This document shows positions 25,657 to 36,323 of a stretch of 64,000 bases of DNA, piece after piece. Within the stretch, counting starts at the first letter, position 1; the number at the start of each line of letters is the position of its first letter. The notes beneath the pieces were generated by a model. The model ran no database searches. It was not told the origin of the DNA and saw only the letters and a list, made by a program, of their open reading frames with translations. The translations under genes were made by a program, and so were the position numbers. Source of the DNA: Candidatus Hydrogenedentota bacterium (GTDB lineage Bacteria > Hydrogenedentota > Hydrogenedentia > Hydrogenedentales > SLHB01); contig JAKPDK010000158.1 in assembly GCA_029552745.1 (NCBI GenBank), forward strand, positions 124,001 to 188,000. The letters are read 5' to 3'.

Positions 25657-28293
25657 TCATCGCCCCGAACGGGAGTGCTTCGACCCCCTTGATGGCTCGT
25701 TCTCTTGCTGTACTACGCGAGTTACCGTAACCGAAGGAGGTTCCGTAGGTCTAGGAGACGCGTCGGCGGTCGCATTCTTCTCAGGATAAGCATCCGCTGC
25801 GAACTGAATCAAAAGCGGCTCACAAGATTCCAGTCGTGTCGGAAACGTAATCTCACGATTGTGTATCAAATCTCTCCCCGTGACACCGCCTCCTTCCAAA
25901 CATGCATATACAGGCTCTTTTCGAATATTAACCACGTACAACAAATAACTTCCGTCGGCTAGCCTCACCGCACGGTTGACCACTCCTTCGATGGGATAAC
26001 CGTATTCATTGACTGTTCTTGGCCTGGGTGAAAATCCCATCCGATGGTACAAGGCATCTAATGCACCCAAATAATGCCGCGCAAGACCTTCCCCACGAAT
26101 CAACACGGTATTGGGAGTGGACTGCAGCACGTCGCGCCGAGCAATCCCATGTTCATCATGGGTCATGGTACGTCCCATACGAATCATCCCCCCATTGTTT
26201 TCCGCAAAGTTCTTTATGGCAGCATACGCCTCATCAGAAACATTCAGCGCATCGGGGACAATTAAGATACGAATATTCAACAAATCCCCGACACTACACT
26301 GCCGTTCGCTGATGAATCTCACCGGCAAACCGAAATACGAAGCGCCCTCGTATGCACGAAGAAGGGTCTCAAGATAATTCTTACCCCCTTCAGCCATCTT
26401 GGAGGACATGCTCCAAAGAACAGCCACTTCTGCACCAGCCGACTGAAGTTGGGAGATCACTTCCCCCAGACGATTAAAATCCAGACTTGCTGTACTGGCA
26501 GCCTCCACACAATCGACATATCTTTCCGACGCCAACGGTGCGAACGGCTCTTCACGTGATGCCAGCCTCAGGAACATGCCGTCAGCGCCTGCCACCACCC
26601 CATTCCACAAGGAAGTATATACGTTTGAAAAACGGGGAAATTCGTAACGTCCCGGTTCCACGGGAATACACATCTCAATATCCAGAACCGGCTTTTTCGG
26701 AGAAAGCGAGCGCAACAACGCATAATAAGCAAACGGCAGAGGATAACCTATAGCCAAGTCAGAATCCGTACTCCGTGCCTTGGTCACACAAGCCATAACA
26801 TCAACGATACCCTCAAGAAGCTCGCGATCAAGCCCCCAAATCGTTTCACCAGACTCAAACACGTCGTCGTCAAACGCCACAAAAAGTGGGATTTCGACCT
26901 GTTGACTCTTTACCCAATCACGCAGATTCTGAAGATATCTTGCAGCCAACATTTGGTGATAGGTTTGTAAATCAAATTGATACGGCGTGTGACGCACATA
27001 GTTGGGGACCTCTTTGGGCATATTGACTTGGTGAATCAACGCAATCTCTTCAAAACGAAATAAGCGACTTCGCCATATTTTATTTACCTCGTCTATTTGG
27101 ACGTATCGGTCACGTATAAACCGAATAAAGTCCTGTCGCACTTCTTCTCCAGCGAAAAGAAAATGAGGACGTTCCAGCATACAAAGCGCCACCGGAACGC
27201 CCCAGGAAACTTTCGTCCACGCACTCCAATCAAGACCTGTTAGTGATTTGACAGAAGACATGTCGGGTAAACCGGACGGGGAAATCAGCGAGGTGTCACT
27301 GCCCCAACGATAAACCGCCCAGACGCCCGCACAGCACGGCACAGACGGTTCCGGTTTTTCATGCGCGACGGCACGTTCAAGAATCACCGCATTTAGGTGA
27401 TACCTCGCCACTCTTTCGATATTGTTACCCAAATTATCCGTAAAACCCACTAGATAAACCGGTTTGCCTTCTGCCAGAAAAACCCCATCCGAAATGGATA
27501 ACCGCTTTGATGGCGTGATGGACACGCTTTCATAACGATCGGATGCAAATCCCCCGAAGACAAGTTCACTCCGCGCTCGGTTCGCTACGTCCAGCGCATA
27601 TCGGGACGCCGCGTCGGCCTCCGCCAAATCACCTGCATCGAAAGCTTGTTTAGCCATTACCAGGGCATCCTGTCCCAAAGCACATTGCGCCAGCGCATAA
27701 GGTGGATGGCTGCCACCGGAGACCAGCCGATCCAGATGATTCTTGGTTTCCGTCAACAGAGCGTGAGCTTTTTCCATAGTCCGGGCAATTTCATTAGCAA
27801 ACAGCACCCGAACGCGAAATTGCCTTGACGCCAACTCTTTCCCAGCTACCCACGTCACGCTTGCTTCTCCGATATAATCACCGGCGGCTAAATCCGCTGT
27901 AAGCCAATTAAACTTGATAAGATTTTCCCCTCGAACGAGATCAATCGGCGTTACCCCTTGTTCTAACACCTGCGAATCCGTGGCATTCTTGATAACTAAA
28001 TGGGCGCGACAATTTTCAAAAACATCGGTACTTTTCGCCTTTACAACGAACACCACCGACTCCCCCAGGGAATACCTTTGCCCAACTTGGAGTTCCACAC
28101 GCACGTGCGAACCGGGGTGTTCTTCGCCAGGAAAGATATACAACACCGCTTGTCCCTGTCCCGCCGACGGAGCCGTAGCGCCCTCAGAAGACGCCGTCAC
28201 ATCCGAATGAGCAAAATTTGCCGCCGTCAAAAGGGTTACAACCAGAAAAACGGTTTTTCGACCAAAGTGCTCACGCATCGAACTTTTTGCCAC
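25657..28293 (-). CDS. Secreted GH42-like beta-galactosidase-family protein
   Basis: An 878-residue protein with a signal peptide (TVFLVVTLLTAANFAHS, about residues 14-30). Residues about 40-160 look like a beta-sandwich; 170-235 are helical. The TIM-barrel part (about 270-590) begins at VYLVGFTDNLGNNIERVARYHLNAVI and includes DEVNKIWRSRLFRFEEIA, a typical GH42 segment, and VLDIEMCIP near the expected nucleophile. Residues about 615-790 resemble the GH42 trimerisation domain (AGAEVAVLWSMSSKMAEGGKNYLETLLRAYEG). The second catalytic Glu is not assigned. The start is GTG at 28293 with AAGGAGG seven bases upstream; ATG five codons later has none. The C-terminus is low-complexity and Pro/Arg/Ser-rich. 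Confidence 0.75.
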   Translation of the reverse strand: MAKSSMREHFGRKTVFLVVTLLTAANFAHSDVTASSEGATAPSAGQGQAVLYIFPGEEHPGSHVRVELQVGQRYSLGESVVFVVKAKSTDVFENCRAHLVIKNATDSQVLEQGVTPIDLVRGENLIKFNWLTADLAAGDYIGEASVTWVAGKELASRQFRVRVLFANEIARTMEKAHALLTETKNHLDRLVSGGSHPPYALAQCALGQDALVMAKQAFDAGDLAEADAASRYALDVANRARSELVFGGFASDRYESVSITPSKRLSISDGVFLAEGKPVYLVGFTDNLGNNIERVARYHLNAVILERAVAHEKPEPSVPCCAGVWAVYRWGSDTSLISPSGLPDMSSVKSLTGLDWSAWTKVSWGVPVALCMLERPHFLFAGEEVRQDFIRFIRDRYVQIDEVNKIWRSRLFRFEEIALIHQVNMPKEVPNYVRHTPYQFDLQTYHQMLAARYLQNLRDWVKSQQVEIPLFVAFDDDVFESGETIWGLDRELLEGIVDVMACVTKARSTDSDLAIGYPLPFAYYALLRSLSPKKPVLDIEMCIPVEPGRYEFPRFSNVYTSLWNGVVAGADGMFLRLASREEPFAPLASERYVDCVEAASTASLDFNRLGEVISQLQSAGAEVAVLWSMSSKMAEGGKNYLETLLRAYEGASYFGLPVRFISERQCSVGDLLNIRILIVPDALNVSDEAYAAIKNFAENNGGMIRMGRTMTHDEHGIARRDVLQSTPNTVLIRGEGLARHYLGALDALYHRMGFSPRPRTVNEYGYPIEGVVNRAVRLADGSYLLYVVNIRKEPVYACLEGGGVTGRDLIHNREITFPTRLESCEPLLIQFAADAYPEKNATADASPRPTEPPSVTVTRVVQQENEPSRGSKHSRSGR

Positions 28294-28627: not shown

Positions 28628-28656
28628 TTGACATACGAGAGGGGGTTGCGTACAAT
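28628..28656 (+). promoter_or_regulatory. Sigma-70-type promoter for the secretin operon
   Basis: TTGACA (28628-28633), 17-base spacer and TACAAT (28651-28656) form an almost perfect promoter. The transcript would begin near 28663, 66 bases before the first gene of the secretin operon. It sits in a 435-base gap (28294-28728); the rest of that gap shows no gene or clear repeat. The promoter also argues against the small open frame at 28532-28750 being a gene. Confidence 0.7.
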
Positions 28657-28728: not shown

Positions 28729-29175
28729 ATGTACGCCAACGCCGAAATAGGACGGCGCAGCCTCCGGGTATTTATCGCGCCTGGCTTGCTAGGTTGTGTT
28801 TTCGGTGCGCTAGCGTTAGGTTATTCAATACAACCCGACAAAGTGGACCGGCAGAAAATTTTCTACGGTACACCCGAAAAATTTGAAAAACCAGCAGAAG
28901 TCGATTATGAACAGGTCGTACGCACGACTCCGGAATATCAAGAAATTCAAAAAAAGAACGTGGAACGCGGCTCAGGCAGATATTGGATCCTTTTGAGTCG
29001 TGCCAGTGAACATGCGATTCGAGCCATTTGCAAAGTAGGTGACGAGACTGAACATGACCTGATTGCGGCGGCGGGTTATTTGGGCTCACTTGACCCTCCA
29101 ATTCCTGCCGAAGACATTACGCAAATTGTTGTAGAAAGTCTAAAACAGGAAAACAAGAAGAAACCTTCTACGTGA
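28729..29175 (+). CDS. Small single-pass membrane protein, secretin operon
   Basis: A 148-residue protein with one N-terminal membrane helix (SLRVFIAPGLLGCVFGALALGYS, about residues 11-33) and a soluble C-terminal domain rich in Glu and Lys. No known family was recognised. Its small size, topology and position at the head of an operon with a TPR lipoprotein and two secretins suggest an inner-membrane accessory protein of a secretion or pilus-like machine. The stop overlaps the next start in a GTGA. No strong ribosome-binding site precedes ATG 28729. Confidence 0.6.
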   Translation: MYANAEIGRRSLRVFIAPGLLGCVFGALALGYSIQPDKVDRQKIFYGTPEKFEKPAEVDYEQVVRTTPEYQEIQKKNVERGSGRYWILLSRASEHAIRAICKVGDETEHDLIAAAGYLGSLDPPIPAEDITQIVVESLKQENKKKPST

Positions 29176-30191
29176 AGACTACAATAGGTAGCAAAGCAAT
29201 CCACATGCGAGTTAAGAGACGGGCAGCCTGCGATATTCTAGCCTACGTGCTTCTTTTCGGACTTATCGTGGGATGCAGTACGCCGCGGTCGACTTCTCCC
29301 GTTGGTTCCATGCCCATACTGAAAAACCGTTTCGTCGATTTTCGAACCGCGGGTAAAGAGGTAGAAGAAGCCGAGCGCATGATAAAAGCCGGTGATTACA
29401 CCGTCGTCACCCCACGATTACAACATGTGATTTCCAAATATCCTGAGTCACAAGCCGGTATCGATGCCCGTTACTGGTTGGCGGTGGCGTACCAAAAAAT
29501 GAACAGCGCTCGCGAAGCCATTGACATGTTTTCTGAATATCTCCGTTTGGCGCCGGAAGGCAAGTATGCTTCTGAAGCAAAAGCATGCGTAGCCCAACTC
29601 CAGGCGGAATATCAGAGCAAATACCCCTCTCCGGAAGAACTGGACAAACAGATTCAGTCCATCTCCGAACAGGCCATTGCCCACCCAGAAAATTTGGAAC
29701 TGCGGTTGGAATTGGCTGACTTGCTGTGGAAACGCGGGAACTATGAGGAAGCCGGAAGAATATATTACTCAATAACAAAGGAACACCCTGAACTCGCGGC
29801 GGATTCGCGGATAGTCTCACGAGTCGAGCTTCTACCGAATGGCACGTATGTAGTATTAAGTCCTGCCGAGGTGCAGCGCCGTGAGATTCAGGAAAAGCCG
29901 CTCGTGGTGGTCAATACCGCGTCGTTTCGCAGCGGAAGAGATCTTTTTACTCGGGAAAGAAAATATTATGTTGTAACAGGCCAAGCTTATAACCGAAGCG
30001 ACAGCGTGCTCTATGGGGTGCAGGTTATCGTAACACTATACGGTTTTGGCGGCATGGTATATGATTCGACTGCTTACAATATTGGCCGTTTAAATCCCGG
30101 GGAACGCCGCGCTTTCAGTGTGCGATTCTCTAATTTTGATACACTAGACAACATCCTTCGGTATGAATGCGAAGGCGTTTTTGAACGGTGA
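29172..30191 (+). CDS. TPR-containing lipoprotein
   Basis: A 339-residue protein with a lipoprotein signal: the lipobox LIVGC ends at residue 35 from the GTG start at 29172, or residue 24 from the in-frame ATG at 29205. The processed protein should be lipid-anchored. Residues about 55-215 are tetratricopeptide repeats (AGIDARYWLAVAYQKMN, AIDMFSEYLRLAPEG, NLELRLELADLLWKRGNYEEAGRIYYSI). The last 90 residues resemble an FxLYD-type beta domain (YYVVTGQAYNRSDSVLYGV). It overlaps the preceding gene by four bases and lies four bases before the first secretin gene. TPR lipoproteins often act as pilotins or assembly factors for secretins (PilF type), which fits here by analogy. Confidence 0.75.
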   Translation: MKTTIGSKAIHMRVKRRAACDILAYVLLFGLIVGCSTPRSTSPVGSMPILKNRFVDFRTAGKEVEEAERMIKAGDYTVVTPRLQHVISKYPESQAGIDARYWLAVAYQKMNSAREAIDMFSEYLRLAPEGKYASEAKACVAQLQAEYQSKYPSPEELDKQIQSISEQAIAHPENLELRLELADLLWKRGNYEEAGRIYYSITKEHPELAADSRIVSRVELLPNGTYVVLSPAEVQRREIQEKPLVVVNTASFRSGRDLFTRERKYYVVTGQAYNRSDSVLYGVQVIVTLYGFGGMVYDSTAYNIGRLNPGERRAFSVRFSNFDTLDNILRYECEGVFER

Positions 30192-30195
30192 ACGA

Positions 30196-31374
30196 ATGAA
30201 TAAAACGTTCTTGAGACTCTGTTTGATTGGGATTATGTTGGTGGGAAGCCTGGCTCTTGGGCAAGACCAACCTGCCCCGGCACAGCCACCGCCAGCGCCG
30301 CCTCCACCGCCCCAGCAAGCCCCCCAAGCGGTTACGGTGACGGCCAAGATTATCGAGTTCCAAGCGACAAAAGGCTTGGAAACGGGGCTCAGTGCCTATT
30401 TTCGCCGCCGAAATCGGGTTGATTGGTATGGTATCGTGAGACCCCCCGTCCAAGGACTTATGAACGCCGATGTGACGTTTCCGACATCAACAGCGAGCGG
30501 AATCACCGTCTTTCTTGACCGCCTGCGCCTAACCGAAGGCGACCTCGAAATGATCTTGCAAGGACTCGTCAATGAAAACAAAGCCGAAATACTTTCCCGT
30601 CCACGGTTGATGGTCATGGTCGGCGGGGACATTAACCAAATTGGTATTCTGCAGCGCGTACCCTACGAAAACACCACGGTAGTAGGATACGTGCCGGTGC
30701 AAACCACGGAGTTCGAGAATACCGGCGTGAGCCTGCAAGTAGAAGTCCCTAAAGTCATTGACTTGGATAACGACTGGAACACACGGGAGGATACCCTCAT
30801 TCAATTGCAAGTGAGAGCCGAAGTCTCAGAGGAAGGACAACGCATCGTTGTTGCGCTTGATAACCGCGCGGAAGGCGGTGTTCTTGCTTCGAGCAAGAAT
30901 GATCTTACCGCGCCCGAGTTCGTCTCAAGAACCTTGAAAACGCGCATGTGGGTGCGGGATGGCCAAACCTTGGTTATGGGCGGCCTTTACCGAAATGCCA
31001 AGAACAAGGGCTTGACGAGCGCACCTTGGATCACTCAAGCCGAAGACATGGCTGTAGGCCTTGCGGAACGGGTCGTGCCGGGCAACATCCTCGGGTCACC
31101 GATCTCCGCAACCCTTGGCAATCGCACGGTCAACGAGAGTCGGAGAGAACTGGTATTTTTCATCAAAGCCGAAACATGGCGGCCCGCTTTCACCGTTGCT
31201 ACGGACAACGGCTTACAACAAGAAAGTGCGGGAGAAAAGAAACAGACCCCTGCTGACATCATCAGCGGCGTTTTGGAGGGCATCACCCAGCTTCCTCAGG
31301 GAATTGCCGAGGGCATCAAACGCGAAACGGGACCTACAAACGACATCTCTTCAGAACTCGGAGGACGGAAATAA
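30196..31374 (+). CDS. Short secretin-like protein 1
   Basis: A 392-residue protein with a signal peptide (FLRLCLIGIMLVGSLALG), then a Pro/Ala/Gln-rich linker (about residues 22-45), then a secretin C-terminal core. The core is recognisable by EILSRPRLMVMVGGDINQIGI (about 130-150), GVSLQVEVPKVIDL and VRDGQTLVMGGLYRN (about 253-267), the motifs shared by GspD and PilQ. The N0 and N1-N3 ring domains are missing, so it is much shorter than PilQ or GspD (600-700 residues). The ATG at 30196 is used because it lies just upstream of the signal peptide and after the previous stop; the frame is open from 30163. The next gene overlaps by one base (TAATG). It should oligomerise in the outer membrane, but partner and cargo are unknown. 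Confidence 0.7.
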   Translation: MNKTFLRLCLIGIMLVGSLALGQDQPAPAQPPPAPPPPPQQAPQAVTVTAKIIEFQATKGLETGLSAYFRRRNRVDWYGIVRPPVQGLMNADVTFPTSTASGITVFLDRLRLTEGDLEMILQGLVNENKAEILSRPRLMVMVGGDINQIGILQRVPYENTTVVGYVPVQTTEFENTGVSLQVEVPKVIDLDNDWNTREDTLIQLQVRAEVSEEGQRIVVALDNRAEGGVLASSKNDLTAPEFVSRTLKTRMWVRDGQTLVMGGLYRNAKNKGLTSAPWITQAEDMAVGLAERVVPGNILGSPISATLGNRTVNESRRELVFFIKAETWRPAFTVATDNGLQQESAGEKKQTPADIISGVLEGITQLPQGIAEGIKRETGPTNDISSELGGRK

Positions 31375-32441
31375 TGAAACGCATTTCGGTCCTCATTTCG
31401 GTTATTTGTCTATTAGTTTTGTCGAATGGCTATGCCCAATTACCCGGTTCTCCCCCACCAAAACCTCCAGAAGCACTGGCAAAAACTGCAACTCCACCTG
31501 AAGAAATCCGTCAAGTACAGATCCAGGTGTGGATCAGCGAGACTGGTGAACAAGGATTAAGGGATTTGGGGGCAAACCTCACTTACACGCGATTCGTCCG
31601 GGGTAGAGAGCAAGCAGGTTCCGTGCAACAGATAAGCACCAATGTTCAGAGTTTCCAAAAACCTGAGTTTGATGTGGTCTTGCCTGTCCCGAACCAAACG
31701 CTCTTTCCCGCACCGCTTCGACCTGATCCGTCGGGTACCTTGGCTGATGGAATTCAAGCTCAACAGGGTGTGGGACTTTCATCCACGTTAATCTTTGACG
31801 ATTATGGCACCCTAGACACCATCTTCCGAGGTCTGGAGAGAAAATCCGACCTGGACTTAATCGCAAAACCCGAACTTTTGGTCATTAACGGACAAGAGGC
31901 GGAGATTCATGCGGGTTCCCGCGTGCCCTTCCAGTCTATTGCCTACATTCAAGGAAGAGCCCAATTAAAAGTTGTGTGGGAACCCATTGGAGTTTACCTA
32001 AAACTGACACCCGTTATCCTGGATGGACCTACCCCCTCCGTCCAAATGAACATAAACACCCTAGCCGTAAGCGATGTCGCGCGCATCGACAACGTGCGAG
32101 GCGTAGATTTGCCTGTTTTCTCAACCCGTTCCCAGAGCGGTACAGTGCTGGTTCCCAATGGGGAAACGCTCGTCATCGGCGGACTCACCACACGCGTTGT
32201 CCGCCGCACGGAACGCCGTGTCCCTGTGGTCGGAAACATTCCCTTGGTAGGGATCCCATTCCGTGGACGACGCTCGGACGCTATTACGAATCACCTGCTC
32301 ATCTTCGTCAAACCCACTATCGTTGATTTACGCCAGAAAGAATCAGAGAATCTCAGTGCTTTAGAGTTCTGGCGGCGCGATCAATGGAAACATCAAGAAA
32401 GAATTGACGAAGAGATCAAGTTACTCCAAGAAGACCTATAA
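31374..32441 (+). CDS. Short secretin-like protein 2
   Basis: A 355-residue protein with a signal peptide (VLISVICLLVLSNGYAQ, about residues 5-21) and a secretin core. Diagnostic segments are LIAKPELLVINGQEAEIHAGSRVPFQS (about 161-187), VYLKLTPVI and GETLVIGGLTTRVVRRTERRVPVVGNIPLVG (about 263-293), the latter the secretin C-terminal signature with the V-P-x-x-G-x-I-P-x-x-G motif. Like the upstream protein it has no N0/N1 domains. It starts on the last base of the upstream stop (TAATG), so the two are translationally coupled. Two different short secretins in one operon suggest a mixed or two-ring outer-membrane channel, or two-part duty split. No ATPase or inner-membrane platform gene lies in the window. 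Confidence 0.75.
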   Translation: MKRISVLISVICLLVLSNGYAQLPGSPPPKPPEALAKTATPPEEIRQVQIQVWISETGEQGLRDLGANLTYTRFVRGREQAGSVQQISTNVQSFQKPEFDVVLPVPNQTLFPAPLRPDPSGTLADGIQAQQGVGLSSTLIFDDYGTLDTIFRGLERKSDLDLIAKPELLVINGQEAEIHAGSRVPFQSIAYIQGRAQLKVVWEPIGVYLKLTPVILDGPTPSVQMNINTLAVSDVARIDNVRGVDLPVFSTRSQSGTVLVPNGETLVIGGLTTRVVRRTERRVPVVGNIPLVGIPFRGRRSDAITNHLLIFVKPTIVDLRQKESENLSALEFWRRDQWKHQERIDEEIKLLQEDL

Positions 32442-32581: not shown

Positions 32582-33034
32582 CCTTTGGCACTGTTTCGAG
32601 GACGTAGACTAGGTTTGTACGCCCGGTTGTCAGTGCGAGGAGCAAGTCTATCCCCCTTGTAGGGGCGAGGCATGCCTCGCCCTTCCCCTCAACCACGTAG
32701 CGCAAGATGACATAGGGCATGGGCCGCGGTAATCTTCGGATACCCGAGGGGATTGCCACGTCGCCCCTTCGGGGCTCCTCGCAATGACAGCGGAAGACGG
32801 CTTTCTATCCCCTGCGCAGGGTTCAGCCCCCCTGTGCCCCCCATGCGGGGACTAACAAGAGATGACAGAAGAACAACACGGCGGGGAGCCCTCCCCCGCG
32901 TGCGGGGGGACTAGGTAGGCATAGATAGATCAAACCTACCTATGACGCTATGCGTCAGTGCCTTCCTCTCAATAACCTTCATGAAAAAAACCTCTCTTCA
33001 ATTGCTCATCCAACATAACAAAAGGTGCCAAAGG
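32582..33034 (+). repeat. Dispersed non-coding repeat, copy B
   Basis: This copy fills most of the 652-base gap before lnt. CCTTTGGCACT at 32582-32592 and GGTGCCAAAGG at 33024-33034 are the inverted ends (one mismatch), giving a 453-bp unit. It contains CAGTGCGAGGAGC near 32631 and GGGGATTGCCACGTCGCCCC ... GGCTCCTCGCAATGACA (about 32749-32790), nearly identical to copy A over 40 bases. A perfect 20-bp palindrome, GGGCGAGGCATGCCTCGCCC, lies at 32663-32682 and recurs in copy D. Flanks GCATAAGTTCACA (left) and TATACATTGCATTGAAA (right) are also shared with copies A and C. No open frame looks coding. Confidence 0.75.
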
Positions 33035-33093
33035 TACTGGCCCTATACATTGCATTGAAATCTCTCTCCTCTCTCGCGCATGATCCTGGCGTA

Positions 33094-34629
33094 ATGTTGA
33101 GCACAACCCAGAAAAAAAAGCGTGGGATTTCTATTATTGCCGCTATTGCCACAGGGCTGCTCACCGCCCTCAGCTTTCCGTCGTGGCACGTGTTCCCGCT
33201 TGTGTGGATTGCTCTCATCCCGTTGTTAACCATCGCTTTCCGCCAACCGTCACCCAAACAGACCTTCTTTTACTTCTTTGTTTCCGGGGCTGTCTTTTAT
33301 CTGATCCTATTGCAATGGCTGCTTTGCAACGTGTATTGGGCGGGCGGCTGGGCGGTGTGGGGATATGTTGCCCTCTGTGCCCTCATGGCAGCCTATTGGG
33401 GTTGTTGCGGCGCAACATGGCATTGGCTTTGTCTCGCCAATAGCCCCAGTCTGTCCACTTTAAGTCTTGCAGTCCTCTGGACGACCATGGAGTTCTTACA
33501 AGGCAAACTGTTCACAGGTTTTGGATGGGGGGCGCTTGGCTACGTGCATGCGGGAGACATCTATGTTCTCCAATTGGCATCGATCGGAGGCACCGGCTTA
33601 TTATCCTTCCTCACCGTCGTGGTTAATAACCTTTTGGCGCGCGCCCTGTGTGAATCGTCCCTCCGTCTGCCCCGCATTTTGTTCGCTCTAGGTATTGTCG
33701 CGGTAGCGCACCTTGTCGGATGGTCATTACTTGATGAAGCAGACTATCGCTCCAATCCCTTCTTGGTGGGACTTGTGCAATCCAACTTTCCCCAAGAGGT
33801 GAAATGGGACCCGGAATATGGGGTCGAAATGGTGGACAAGACGATCGAAGTCACCCGTGAAATGCTTGACACAACCGGCGTAGACCTCATCGTTTGGCCT
33901 GAAGCCCTAATCATGACTCCTCTGGAAACGCCAGGAGTAATGAAAAACCTAGCCGCGTTGACTCGAGAAGCTCAAGCGCCGTTATTTACAGGCATTTCCC
34001 GTTTCGTGCCGGAATCTAATGGCTGGGCAAACTCAAGTTGTCTAATCACGGAACAGGGCAACATTGCCGGATACTACGACAAAATCCACTTAGCGCCTTT
34101 TGGGGAGTATGTCCCTTTAGGGAAGTATTTTCCATTTATCACACAGATTGTGCCTGCAATCGGAGAAATGGTCCCCGGAGAATCTCCAGCCGTCTTTGAT
34201 GTGGGAACAAGACGAATAGGCCCCCTGATCTGCTTTGAAGTGCTGTTTCCTGAAATGGCGGAACGTCTGCGTCGTAACAAAGCGGACTGTCTCGTCGTCA
34301 TTACAAACCTTGCGTGGTTCGGAGTAAGCAATGCCATTCCCCAAGAGCGAGAGATTAGCCGTCTCCGGGCAGTGGAAACACGGCTCCCTCTCATCCATTG
34401 CGCCAACACGGGAGTCTCCGGCGTCTTCGACCCGTACGGAAGGTTTACGAACATAGGCGAAACTCACATTAGGACATTCGATGCGGTACCTGTGGCCGCG
34501 CCGACCCATCAGCCACTTCCGGTCAGTCCCTCACTTTTCTCCAAAATCTGCGCCATCGCTTCTGCAGTTTTCGTTATCCTCAAGCTCATCATACGCATAA
34601 AGTCAAGACCGGACCCACAAAATAATTGA
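33094..34629 (+). CDS. lnt: Apolipoprotein N-acyltransferase
   Basis: Lnt adds the third acyl chain to the N-terminal cysteine of lipoproteins in the inner membrane. The 511-residue protein has about six N-terminal membrane helices and then a periplasmic nitrilase-type domain. The Glu-Lys-Cys triad is visible: WPEALI (Glu near 270), YDKIHLAPFGEYVP (Lys near 330) and GPLICFEVLFPE (Cys near 380). ATG 33094 is preferred; the in-frame GTG at 33025 falls inside the inverted end of repeat B. A weak site precedes the ATG. The several lipoprotein genes in the window are its likely substrates. It is followed by murJ after 65 bases. Confidence 0.95.
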   Translation: MLSTTQKKKRGISIIAAIATGLLTALSFPSWHVFPLVWIALIPLLTIAFRQPSPKQTFFYFFVSGAVFYLILLQWLLCNVYWAGGWAVWGYVALCALMAAYWGCCGATWHWLCLANSPSLSTLSLAVLWTTMEFLQGKLFTGFGWGALGYVHAGDIYVLQLASIGGTGLLSFLTVVVNNLLARALCESSLRLPRILFALGIVAVAHLVGWSLLDEADYRSNPFLVGLVQSNFPQEVKWDPEYGVEMVDKTIEVTREMLDTTGVDLIVWPEALIMTPLETPGVMKNLAALTREAQAPLFTGISRFVPESNGWANSSCLITEQGNIAGYYDKIHLAPFGEYVPLGKYFPFITQIVPAIGEMVPGESPAVFDVGTRRIGPLICFEVLFPEMAERLRRNKADCLVVITNLAWFGVSNAIPQEREISRLRAVETRLPLIHCANTGVSGVFDPYGRFTNIGETHIRTFDAVPVAAPTHQPLPVSPSLFSKICAIASAVFVILKLIIRIKSRPDPQNN

Positions 34630-34694
34630 CCTCTCAAAAAGAGGTTGGTACCCTGATACAATTCTATTGAAACCATTCGAGTGTGGGTTACCCC

Positions 34695-36323
34695 ATGACA
34701 GCGGACACAAGAAAACTATCACGTTTTACAGCCACGTTTGCGAGCGGAACATTCGTCAGCCGCGTTCTGGGCATGATCCGCGACATCCTCTGGGCGAAAT
34801 TCATGCCTACAGGTTCCCTCGACGCGTTTCTCGTCGCTTTTCGGCTTCCCAATATGCTGCGCGATCTCGTGGGTGAAGGAGCAATGAACGCAGCATTCAT
34901 CCCTGTTTTCTCTGAGACGTTGGAAAAGCGCTCGGAAAACGCGTTTCGGGAGTTGGTGCAGACAGTGATGGGAGTCATGCTGATTCTCTTGCTGCTGATC
35001 ACGTTTCTCGGTGTGGTCTTCATCCCGGTGCTCCTCTCGGGCGTGGACGCTCTACGGTTTATTACGGGCTCCGCCCCAAAAACTCAGGAAAACATCGCCC
35101 TGGTTGTCTCGCTCTCTCGTTGGACGTTCCCTTATATTTTTTTCATCGGTATGACCGTCTTCGCGATGGCACCCTTAATGACGTTAGGCCGGTACGCAGT
35201 GCCGTCGTGGTCCCCCGCTTTGTTGAACGTTTCCATCATTTCTTGCCATCTGTTGGTCTATCGATTTTTCCCCCATGTGTTTCCCGACCTGGCCTATGCC
35301 TTAGTGCTCGGTGTCTGGCTGGGCGGTATCGCGCAACTCCTGATGCTCTACATCTCTCTTGGGCGAAATGCACGTGTATGGACGCCTCGGTTTCAACTTG
35401 CCAGCCCCGGTGTGCGGGAAATTTTATTTCTCATGCTGCCCGTGATAGCAGGACAAGCCGCAGGCGAAGTAAACAAACTCGTTGATACCTTGTTCGCCTA
35501 TTCCCTTGAAGAGGGCACTGTTACCGCACTCTTTTATGCCAATCGATTGACCCAACTGCCTCTCTCCATGTTCGGCTTTGCCACAGCAGCCGCCGTTTTG
35601 CCTACCGTGTCTGCGGCGTGGGCTCGCGGTGATGATGATGGCATACGAAAAACTCTCGTTTTCGGATTTAGACAAATACTTTTCTTAGTGATTCCCTCCA
35701 GCCTGGGGCTCATCGTACTCGGAAAACCCATCGTCTGGCTTCTATTCGAACGTGGCAACTTCGATGCCGCCGACACCACTCGAACCGCAACCGCCTTGGC
35801 TTTCTACGCAGCAGGGCTAATCTTCTTTGCTTTGGTGAAAGTCGCGGTAACGGGATTCTACGGAAGCAAAGACACCCGCACACCCGTCATCATCGCCTCA
35901 TTGAGCATGTTGTTGAACATCATTCTAAATTGCCTGCTTGTTCGCCCTTTGGGTTATCGCGGGCTCGCTCTTGCCACCACGATTTCCTATGGCGTCAATT
36001 TTTTCGCCCTGTATTTCTTACTAGTCGATAAATACAGCAGACTCTGGGATAAAGACCTCATCTCTACCGTGGTCAGGATCGCGGCTGCCACGGCTATCGC
36101 TCTCGCCGCAGGATACGCCCTGCACGTGCGCCTGTTAAGCAGTTATCCAGCGGAAATGCTCGGGTTGCTTACCCCACGCCTTGTCACCGTTGCCATACCA
36201 GTTTTGACGGCCGCAGTTCTTTATTTCTTCTCGTGCTGGCTATTACGGGTGCAGGAGGTGGCGTTCTTGTTTCGCGTACTTCTCATTGGCGAAAAGGCAA
36301 AGAAGCGCACCCGTCGAACATGA
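34695..36323 (+). CDS. murJ: Lipid II flippase MurJ
   Basis: A 542-residue MOP-superfamily protein with about 14 membrane helices that flips lipid II across the inner membrane for peptidoglycan synthesis. Typical MurJ/MviN features are the N-terminal ATFASGTFVSRVLGMIRDILWA stretch (about residues 10-30), LPNMLRDLVGEGAMNAAFIPVFSE (about 50-73) and the LFERGNFDAADT loop (about 352-363). ATG 34695 is chosen; an in-frame GTG lies four codons upstream. The C-terminus is basic (KAKKRTRRT). Next to lnt, it makes a small envelope-biogenesis group. Confidence 0.95.
   Translation: MTADTRKLSRFTATFASGTFVSRVLGMIRDILWAKFMPTGSLDAFLVAFRLPNMLRDLVGEGAMNAAFIPVFSETLEKRSENAFRELVQTVMGVMLILLLLITFLGVVFIPVLLSGVDALRFITGSAPKTQENIALVVSLSRWTFPYIFFIGMTVFAMAPLMTLGRYAVPSWSPALLNVSIISCHLLVYRFFPHVFPDLAYALVLGVWLGGIAQLLMLYISLGRNARVWTPRFQLASPGVREILFLMLPVIAGQAAGEVNKLVDTLFAYSLEEGTVTALFYANRLTQLPLSMFGFATAAAVLPTVSAAWARGDDDGIRKTLVFGFRQILFLVIPSSLGLIVLGKPIVWLLFERGNFDAADTTRTATALAFYAAGLIFFALVKVAVTGFYGSKDTRTPVIIASLSMLLNIILNCLLVRPLGYRGLALATTISYGVNFFALYFLLVDKYSRLWDKDLISTVVRIAAATAIALAAGYALHVRLLSSYPAEMLGLLTPRLVTVAIPVLTAAVLYFFSCWLLRVQEVAFLFRVLLIGEKAKKRTRRT

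Follow-up and report, generated by a model that had tools for sequence, protein, structure and literature searches.

A four-gene operon in a metagenome-assembled genome (MAG) of the bacterial phylum Hydrogenedentota encodes two secretins, S1 and S2, that retain only the pore domain, alongside a tetratricopeptide repeat (TPR) lipoprotein, B339, and a protein that probably adopts the Skp (OmpH) fold, A148. The operon occupies positions 28729 to 32441 of a 64,000-nucleotide stretch of DNA, here called the window (C109:124001-188000 of a 4.36-Mb draft genome that is 99.7% complete). We interpret it as a phylum-specific, stand-alone outer-membrane channel in which two diverged core-only secretins have assembly or scaffold proteins of their own, a reading whose chances of being right or wrong we regard as about evenly balanced. 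The four genes lie on the same strand and are joined by overlaps or short gaps.

28729-29175, + strand: A148, 148 amino acids (aa); probable secreted protein of the Skp (OmpH) fold with shortened helical arms; fold at about 28876-29166
29172-30191, + strand: B339, 339 aa; lipoprotein with lipobox Cys35; TPRs at about 29463-29792; C-terminal FxLYD domain at about 29964-30140
30196-31374, + strand: S1, 392 aa; pore domain at about 30322-31185; altered loop at about 30988-31143; conserved C-terminal tail
31374-32441, + strand: S2, 355 aa; pore domain at about 31509-32336, with the canonical signature loop; conserved C-terminal segment at about 32337-32438

A preliminary description of this DNA had proposed that both secretins keep the C-terminal core and lack the N0 and N1-N3 rings, and our analysis bore this out. 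Matches to the secretin family PF00263 (cut-off, 27.5 bits) scored 63.4 bits for S1 (2.5e-17) and 112.7 bits for S2 (1.8e-32), and the family was found at E ≤ 1 in 43/43 S1 and 45/45 S2 family rows. On the 600 positions of the GspD model TIGR02517, S1 aligned with 335-559 and S2 with 336-594, implying that both proteins start where the pore domain starts; the equivalog score of 351 bits was reached by neither (64.1 bits for S1 and 107.9 bits for S2). The hidden N0 or N1 domains that the preliminary description had named as a possible objection did not appear, in that the Pfam matches (E ≤ 1) of the 45 S2 and 43 S1 proteins included neither Secretin_N nor GspD_N0. The five long secretins that this genome also encodes served as a positive control: four matched Secretin_N above its cut-off, and the fifth, which has N-terminal TPRs, gave a subthreshold match. 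In S1 and S2, the pore domain is preceded by a signal peptide and then a Pro/Ala-rich linker, which measures 30-66 residues in 43/43 S1 proteins and 29-65 residues in the 41 of 45 S2 rows in which the start motif was located, the three longest S2 relatives lying outside the set. The S2 proteins of L063, L065 and L066 are 411-478 aa long, and in L063 and L066 the surplus consists of Pro/Ala-rich N-terminal linker. Behind the barrel, each secretin has a conserved tail; the tails differ between the two and could be binding sites.

An AlphaFold model of S1 (mean predicted local distance difference test [pLDDT] score, 67.6; core-strand blocks mostly 75-94, lower around 258-280) supported the pore fold. 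All 40 Foldseek matches at E ≤ 0.001 were chains of secretin complexes, and alignment with solved secretins covered the pore domain only, as with residues 174-403 of pIV (Z 12.0; root mean square deviation [rmsd], 3.5 over 129 residues), a protein whose secretin domain spans 175-405 and whose N3 domain spans 108-172 (PMC8563730; this and the other papers are cited from the excerpts available). S2 matched solved secretins at up to 8e-32 in a profile comparison rather than through a model.

Judged from their sequences, S1 and S2 do not appear to be interchangeable copies, because they differ in a loop and its spacing and fall into separate groups in a tree. The loop P-x-h-G-x-x-P, a signature pattern defined within this analysis, lies after the GGL strand and before the last barrel strand in 45/45 S2 proteins and 20/21 other secretins from the phylum but in 0/43 S1 proteins, and the spacing of the region is 53-54 residues in S1 versus 35 in the measurable S2 and other rows. 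Within the altered segment, the S1 model shows, with low confidence, a helix of 17 residues (277-293). S1 and S2 each formed one fully supported group on a long stem in a tree of 48 rows, and the two were 22-27% identical where BLAST matched one family to the other, and on these grounds we rejected a recent duplication. The approximately unbiased (AU) test for a link between S2 and a split secretin found in relatives (see below) gave a p of 0.152.

The junction of the two secretin genes reads aaaTAATGaaa, with stop and start codons overlapping, in agreement with the translational coupling suggested earlier. The open reading frame list starts S1 at 30163 (403 aa), but an in-frame ATG at 30196, directly after the B339 stop codon, opens a signal peptide, and for that reason we take 30196 to be the probable true start.

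Relatives also encode both secretins, a point that the preliminary description had marked for checking. Of 47 loci from other genomes, 35 have A148, B339, S1 and S2 in this same order on a single strand, and in the remaining 12 the first gene found starts within 153 bases of a contig end; this recurrence across the phylum indicates that the operon is more than a chance arrangement. Among 68 genomes of the phylum, A148 was found in 62, S1 in 62 and S2 in 59, and among the 38 best genomes the counts were 37, 37 and 35; one of these best genomes, G017, is missing all three. Neither S1 (E ≤ 1e-25) nor S2 (E ≤ 1e-50) was found in any of 318 genomes outside the phylum, a count that covers up to five scored candidates per genome plus a search of one species collection with two narrow peptide patterns, and distant versions may exist there. 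The titles of the 47 related loci name Hydrogenedentota, Hydrogenedentes or Hydrogenedens in 41 cases, "uncultured bacterium" in 4 and Nitrospiraceae and Rhodothermaeota in 1 each. The two loci with foreign titles, L085 (Nitrospiraceae; JAACEL010000297.1) and L114 (Rhodothermaeota; VFKU01000291.1), carry operon genes; the label of L085 is probably wrong, the record apparently corresponding to G010:C569, which belongs to the window's family. Extra copies also occur: G001 reads A-B-S1-S2-B-S1-S2, with B-S1-S2 doubled as a unit, G016 and G022 each have a second S2, and G004 has a second S1. A first contig scan of genomes with S1 alone yielded 35 candidates, of which none was confirmed.

The genome contains 16 matches to PF00437 and 12 to PF00482, as well as five long secretins, all of them outside the window, and some of the ATPase, platform and long-secretin genes lie near each other (C26:204838-208499 and C106:169447-180235). 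ATPase and platform genes thus exist elsewhere in the genome, as the preliminary description had asked, and its statement that none is nearby also held, since none of the 16 PF00437 and 12 PF00482 matches falls within C109:124001-188000. A tblastn search with this genome's GspE and GspF found neither in the 47 loci, 20 of which extend at least 4 kb on both sides, and recovered both in two control stretches. We therefore rejected the idea that S1 and S2 belong to a type II secretion system (T2SS) or type IV pilus (T4P) locus. Secretin_N (PF03958) gave 10 matches in the genome, all 10 inside the five long secretins, so that PF03958 disclosed no free N-domain protein, although an N-module of another family would escape such a search. 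The preliminary description had offered a minimal or a split channel; a minimal channel is plausible, whereas one secretin split into halves was rejected, since both proteins carry the core and the genome yielded no free N-module. With the GspE/GspF search empty and Secretin_N confined to the long secretins, S1 and S2 are without an evident motor or free N-domain partner.

Secretins that are split do occur in relatives. In L163 (G005), L170 (G017), L196 (G020), L189 (G011) and L190 (G027), a GspD-like secretin is divided over two adjacent genes, one for an N-module protein (in the two scanned, N0 and four stretches of Secretin_N) and one for a core protein of 395-503 aa. The core proteins of L163, L170 and L176/L196 have a signal-peptide-like N terminus of their own. 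This arrangement was present in 5 of 12 genomes examined, which had been picked for S2 similarity.

B339 proved to be a TPR lipoprotein, as described, and may be a pilotin. Its TPRs were recognized by Pfam, the lipobox Cys35 is invariant in 26/26 rows (a simple lipobox pattern fits 23 of them) and the C-terminal FxLYD domain scored 31.4 bits against a cut-off of 23. A lipoprotein with TPRs that adjoins a secretin corresponds to the TPR pilotins of the PilF/TadD type, and by this analogy B339 could serve as the pilotin of S1 and S2. In the Tad system, secretin formation requires that the TPR lipoprotein TadD bind the last four residues of RcpA (PMC10499894).

The product of the first gene, A148, had been described as a single-pass membrane protein, but the model and profile comparison make a secreted Skp-fold protein more likely, and a membrane anchor was rejected because the signal-peptide-like N terminus is followed by a Skp-like fold. 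The A148 protein of the window had no Pfam match; weak matches to PF03938 (OmpH) were obtained for 20/24 A148-family rows at E ≤ 10 (best, 9.2e-5), and a genome search with PF03938 brought up neither A148 nor its second copy. When the AlphaFold model (pLDDT 87) was aligned with a total of 69 chains, the top three were all Skp (1u2m, Z 8.3, rmsd 3.1 over 85 residues; 1sg2, Z 7.4; and 8gl8 SkpA, Z 5.9), and the next row had a Z of 3.2. An hhalign comparison to 20 canonical Skps from the phylum yielded an E of 7.6e-5 and a probability of 62% over the C-terminal 60 columns, versus an E of 0.12 and a probability of 0.5% for an unrelated control profile. Searching PDB sequences with the A148 profile returned five matches, the best to LptA (E 0.21) and one to an OmpH protein (E 0.39). 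The longest modeled core helix has 24 residues (83-106), from which the arms of A148 are predicted to be much shorter than those of Skp. These comparisons suggest that A148 is probably a secreted periplasmic protein with a short-armed Skp fold. Canonical Skp genes are present besides A148 in 29/30 genomes, which argues that A148 is an extra, specialized protein. Second A148-like genes lie at G000:C102:365493-365897 and G005:C23:23274-23660; contig C102 has no secretin match.

The well-studied secretins GspD, PilQ and InvG have periplasmic N-domains that face an inner-membrane partner. pIV likewise has periplasmic N-domains and, small as it is, keeps N0 and N3 (PMC8563730). S1 and S2 share the PF00263 pore domain with GspD, PilQ and pIV, and S2 also keeps the signature loop, but they differ from these proteins in having no detected N0 or N1-N3, in being two different subunits from one operon and in the replacement of the loop in S1. 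They resemble RhcC1/RhcC2 of the rhizobial type III secretion system (T3SS) in that a C-terminal secretin part sits on its own polypeptide: RhcC2 is a separate C-terminal secretin polypeptide paired with the N-terminal RhcC1 (PMC3574062, PMC3973906), and in two Pseudomonas syringae pathovars a TPR gene lies between the secretin halves (PMC3574062). There, however, the other gene supplies the N-terminal part, whereas the S1 and S2 genes both supply cores and no N-module was found. RcpA and TadD of the Tad pilus resemble S1/S2 and B339 in combining a secretin, its C-terminal tail and a TPR lipoprotein, but B339 adds an FxLYD domain, RcpA has a VirB9-like N-domain (PMC10499894) and the S1/S2 locus is without a motor gene. 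In the translocon of the type IX secretion system (T9SS), SkpA and the TPR lipoprotein SprE are structural parts beneath the outer-membrane channel (PMC10994853), and a similar role for A148 and B339 is therefore thinkable. Both cases would join a Skp-fold protein and a TPR lipoprotein to an outer-membrane channel, and SkpA is among the three Skp rows of A148, but the T9SS channel is SprA and not a secretin, and SkpA has long arms where those of A148 are short. Among the open-licence papers searched, we found no case of two core-only secretins in one operon without an N-module and with a Skp-like partner, and split secretins appeared in print only for rhizobial-type T3SS. Separate C-terminal secretin polypeptides are thus known, and the core-only pair with a Skp-like partner is new within the searched literature.

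Under the stand-alone channel interpretation, all four proteins would be exported. B339 would act like PilF or TadD, binding S1 and/or S2 at their conserved C-terminal tails and carrying these proteins to the outer membrane, and A148 would hold the unfolded subunits, or their Pro-rich N termini, in the periplasm or stay as a structural part under the ring. The pore probably has two kinds of subunit: joint production from overlapping genes and the difference in a conserved loop would make a single mixed ring, or a stack of two rings, the most likely arrangement of S1 and S2. The resulting channel would be a motor-less, gated, wide pore that would lie in the outer membrane and pass a cargo. To our knowledge, no docking site for an inner-membrane platform exists without N0, and with N0-N3 missing S1 and S2 would have no known means of docking to a platform of the GspC or PilP type. 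PulD without N1-N2 still oligomerizes (PMC6946019), but N0 and N3 were retained in that construct, so that it does not prove assembly of a bare core. A more far-reaching version of this interpretation, which we put forward tentatively and consider doubtful, is that the operon encodes a motor-less outer-membrane secretin that requires both of its non-identical, core-only subunits and incorporates a repurposed Skp relative, serving as a basic envelope gate of the whole phylum, and that its subunits either never had N-domain rings or have shed them.

Several points weigh against the stand-alone channel or its parts. The S1 model is of moderate confidence only and, because the signature loop is missing, S1 may fail to insert in the membrane. 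The question of whether S1 and S2 are sisters gave an AU p of 0.28, with long branches. The best NCBIfam matches of B339, all below their cut-offs, were YbgF (49.8/90.1 bits), BamD (36.6/81.4 bits) and PilW (18.4/154 bits), and since YbgF and BamD score ahead of the pilotin PilW, B339 may not be a pilotin. The sequence link between A148 and Skp is weak. SkpA headed the list that Foldseek alone gave, but its E of 1.4 is not significant. Models that have no relatives often reach a best Z of 7-8, so that the Z values of A148 support the Skp fold without proving it, and a simple AxA cleavage pattern fits 18/33 A148 rows.

Three other explanations were weighed. In the first, S1 and S2 would each build a homomeric channel of its own and have no more in common than the operon, a pilotin and a chaperone. 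Both possess a pore domain, the differing conserved tails could give each its own partner, and a second S2 occurs alone in G016 and G022, as does a second S1 in G004. Against this, S1 and S2 co-occur in most genomes of the phylum, B-S1-S2 was doubled as a whole in G001 and the absence from S1 of a loop found in all S2 and nearly all other secretins would be odd for a self-sufficient channel; we consider separate homomers unlikely. In the second, S1 and S2 would form accessory rings for the genome's T2SS or T4P machines, stacked on their long secretins, capping them or anchoring them. S1 looks unfit to span the membrane alone, no motor lies near the pair, and five long secretins are encoded in the genome along with several ATPases and platform proteins. 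But S2 has a pore domain with the canonical loop, the 47 loci yielded no GspE- or GspF-like gene within the scope given above and the frequent neighbors are lnt and murJ, so that this explanation seems to us more unlikely still.

The same lnt-murJ neighborhood would suit an envelope ring that is structural and transports nothing, such as an anchor between the outer membrane and peptidoglycan. The Pro/Ala-rich N-terminal tethers that follow the signal peptide in both secretins, and that are far longer in some S2 proteins, would be in keeping with such a ring, and Skp can be a structural element (PMC10994853). We nevertheless hold it to be very improbable, as channel-forming secretins align with both S1 and S2 in their core segments and no peptidoglycan-binding domain turned up when the four proteins were matched to Pfam. 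If the stand-alone channel is real, it would provide a natural minimal system for the secretin core alone, in which insertion, gating and the mixing of rings could be studied, and it would represent a phylum-wide envelope structure in hardly studied bacteria.

The surroundings of the operon in the window contain the following features, of which the three genes are tied to it by position only.

33025-34629, + strand: lnt (apolipoprotein N-acyltransferase), the next neighbor; downstream in 29/47 loci
34683-36323, + strand: murJ (lipid II flippase); neighbor in 22/47 loci
25657-28293, - strand: divergent gene for a GH42-like secreted protein of 878 aa, with matches just below Pfam cut-offs; upstream in 20/47 loci
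28628-28656, + strand: candidate sigma-70-like promoter TTGACA-17-TACAAT, 11/12 consensus, upstream of the operon

Some of the other loci are cut by contig ends in these regions. By consensus match only, five promoter-like sites were found, where shuffled versions of the region would lead one to expect 3.3. Scanning the window for Rfam families and tRNAs gave no matches. The alignments used throughout contain only genes that exceed a minimum length and do not run off a contig: A1 holds 29/33 listed relatives (without L051, L053, L059 and L065), A4 holds 25/27 (without L051 and L065), A7 holds 44/47 (without the three longest S2 proteins, 473-532 aa) and A2, A3, A5 and A6 are complete.

Two other secretins have unusual layouts. 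The secretin L076 (G000:C26, ~167-170.5 kb), 1158 aa long, carries TPRs at its N terminus and has no Secretin_N match above the cut-off; it is possibly a pilotin-like part fused to a secretin. L073 (G000:C100, ~60.2-61.8 kb) is a secretin of ~520 aa in which Poly_export is followed by Secretin_N and then Secretin, and proteins of G009 and G017 group with it.

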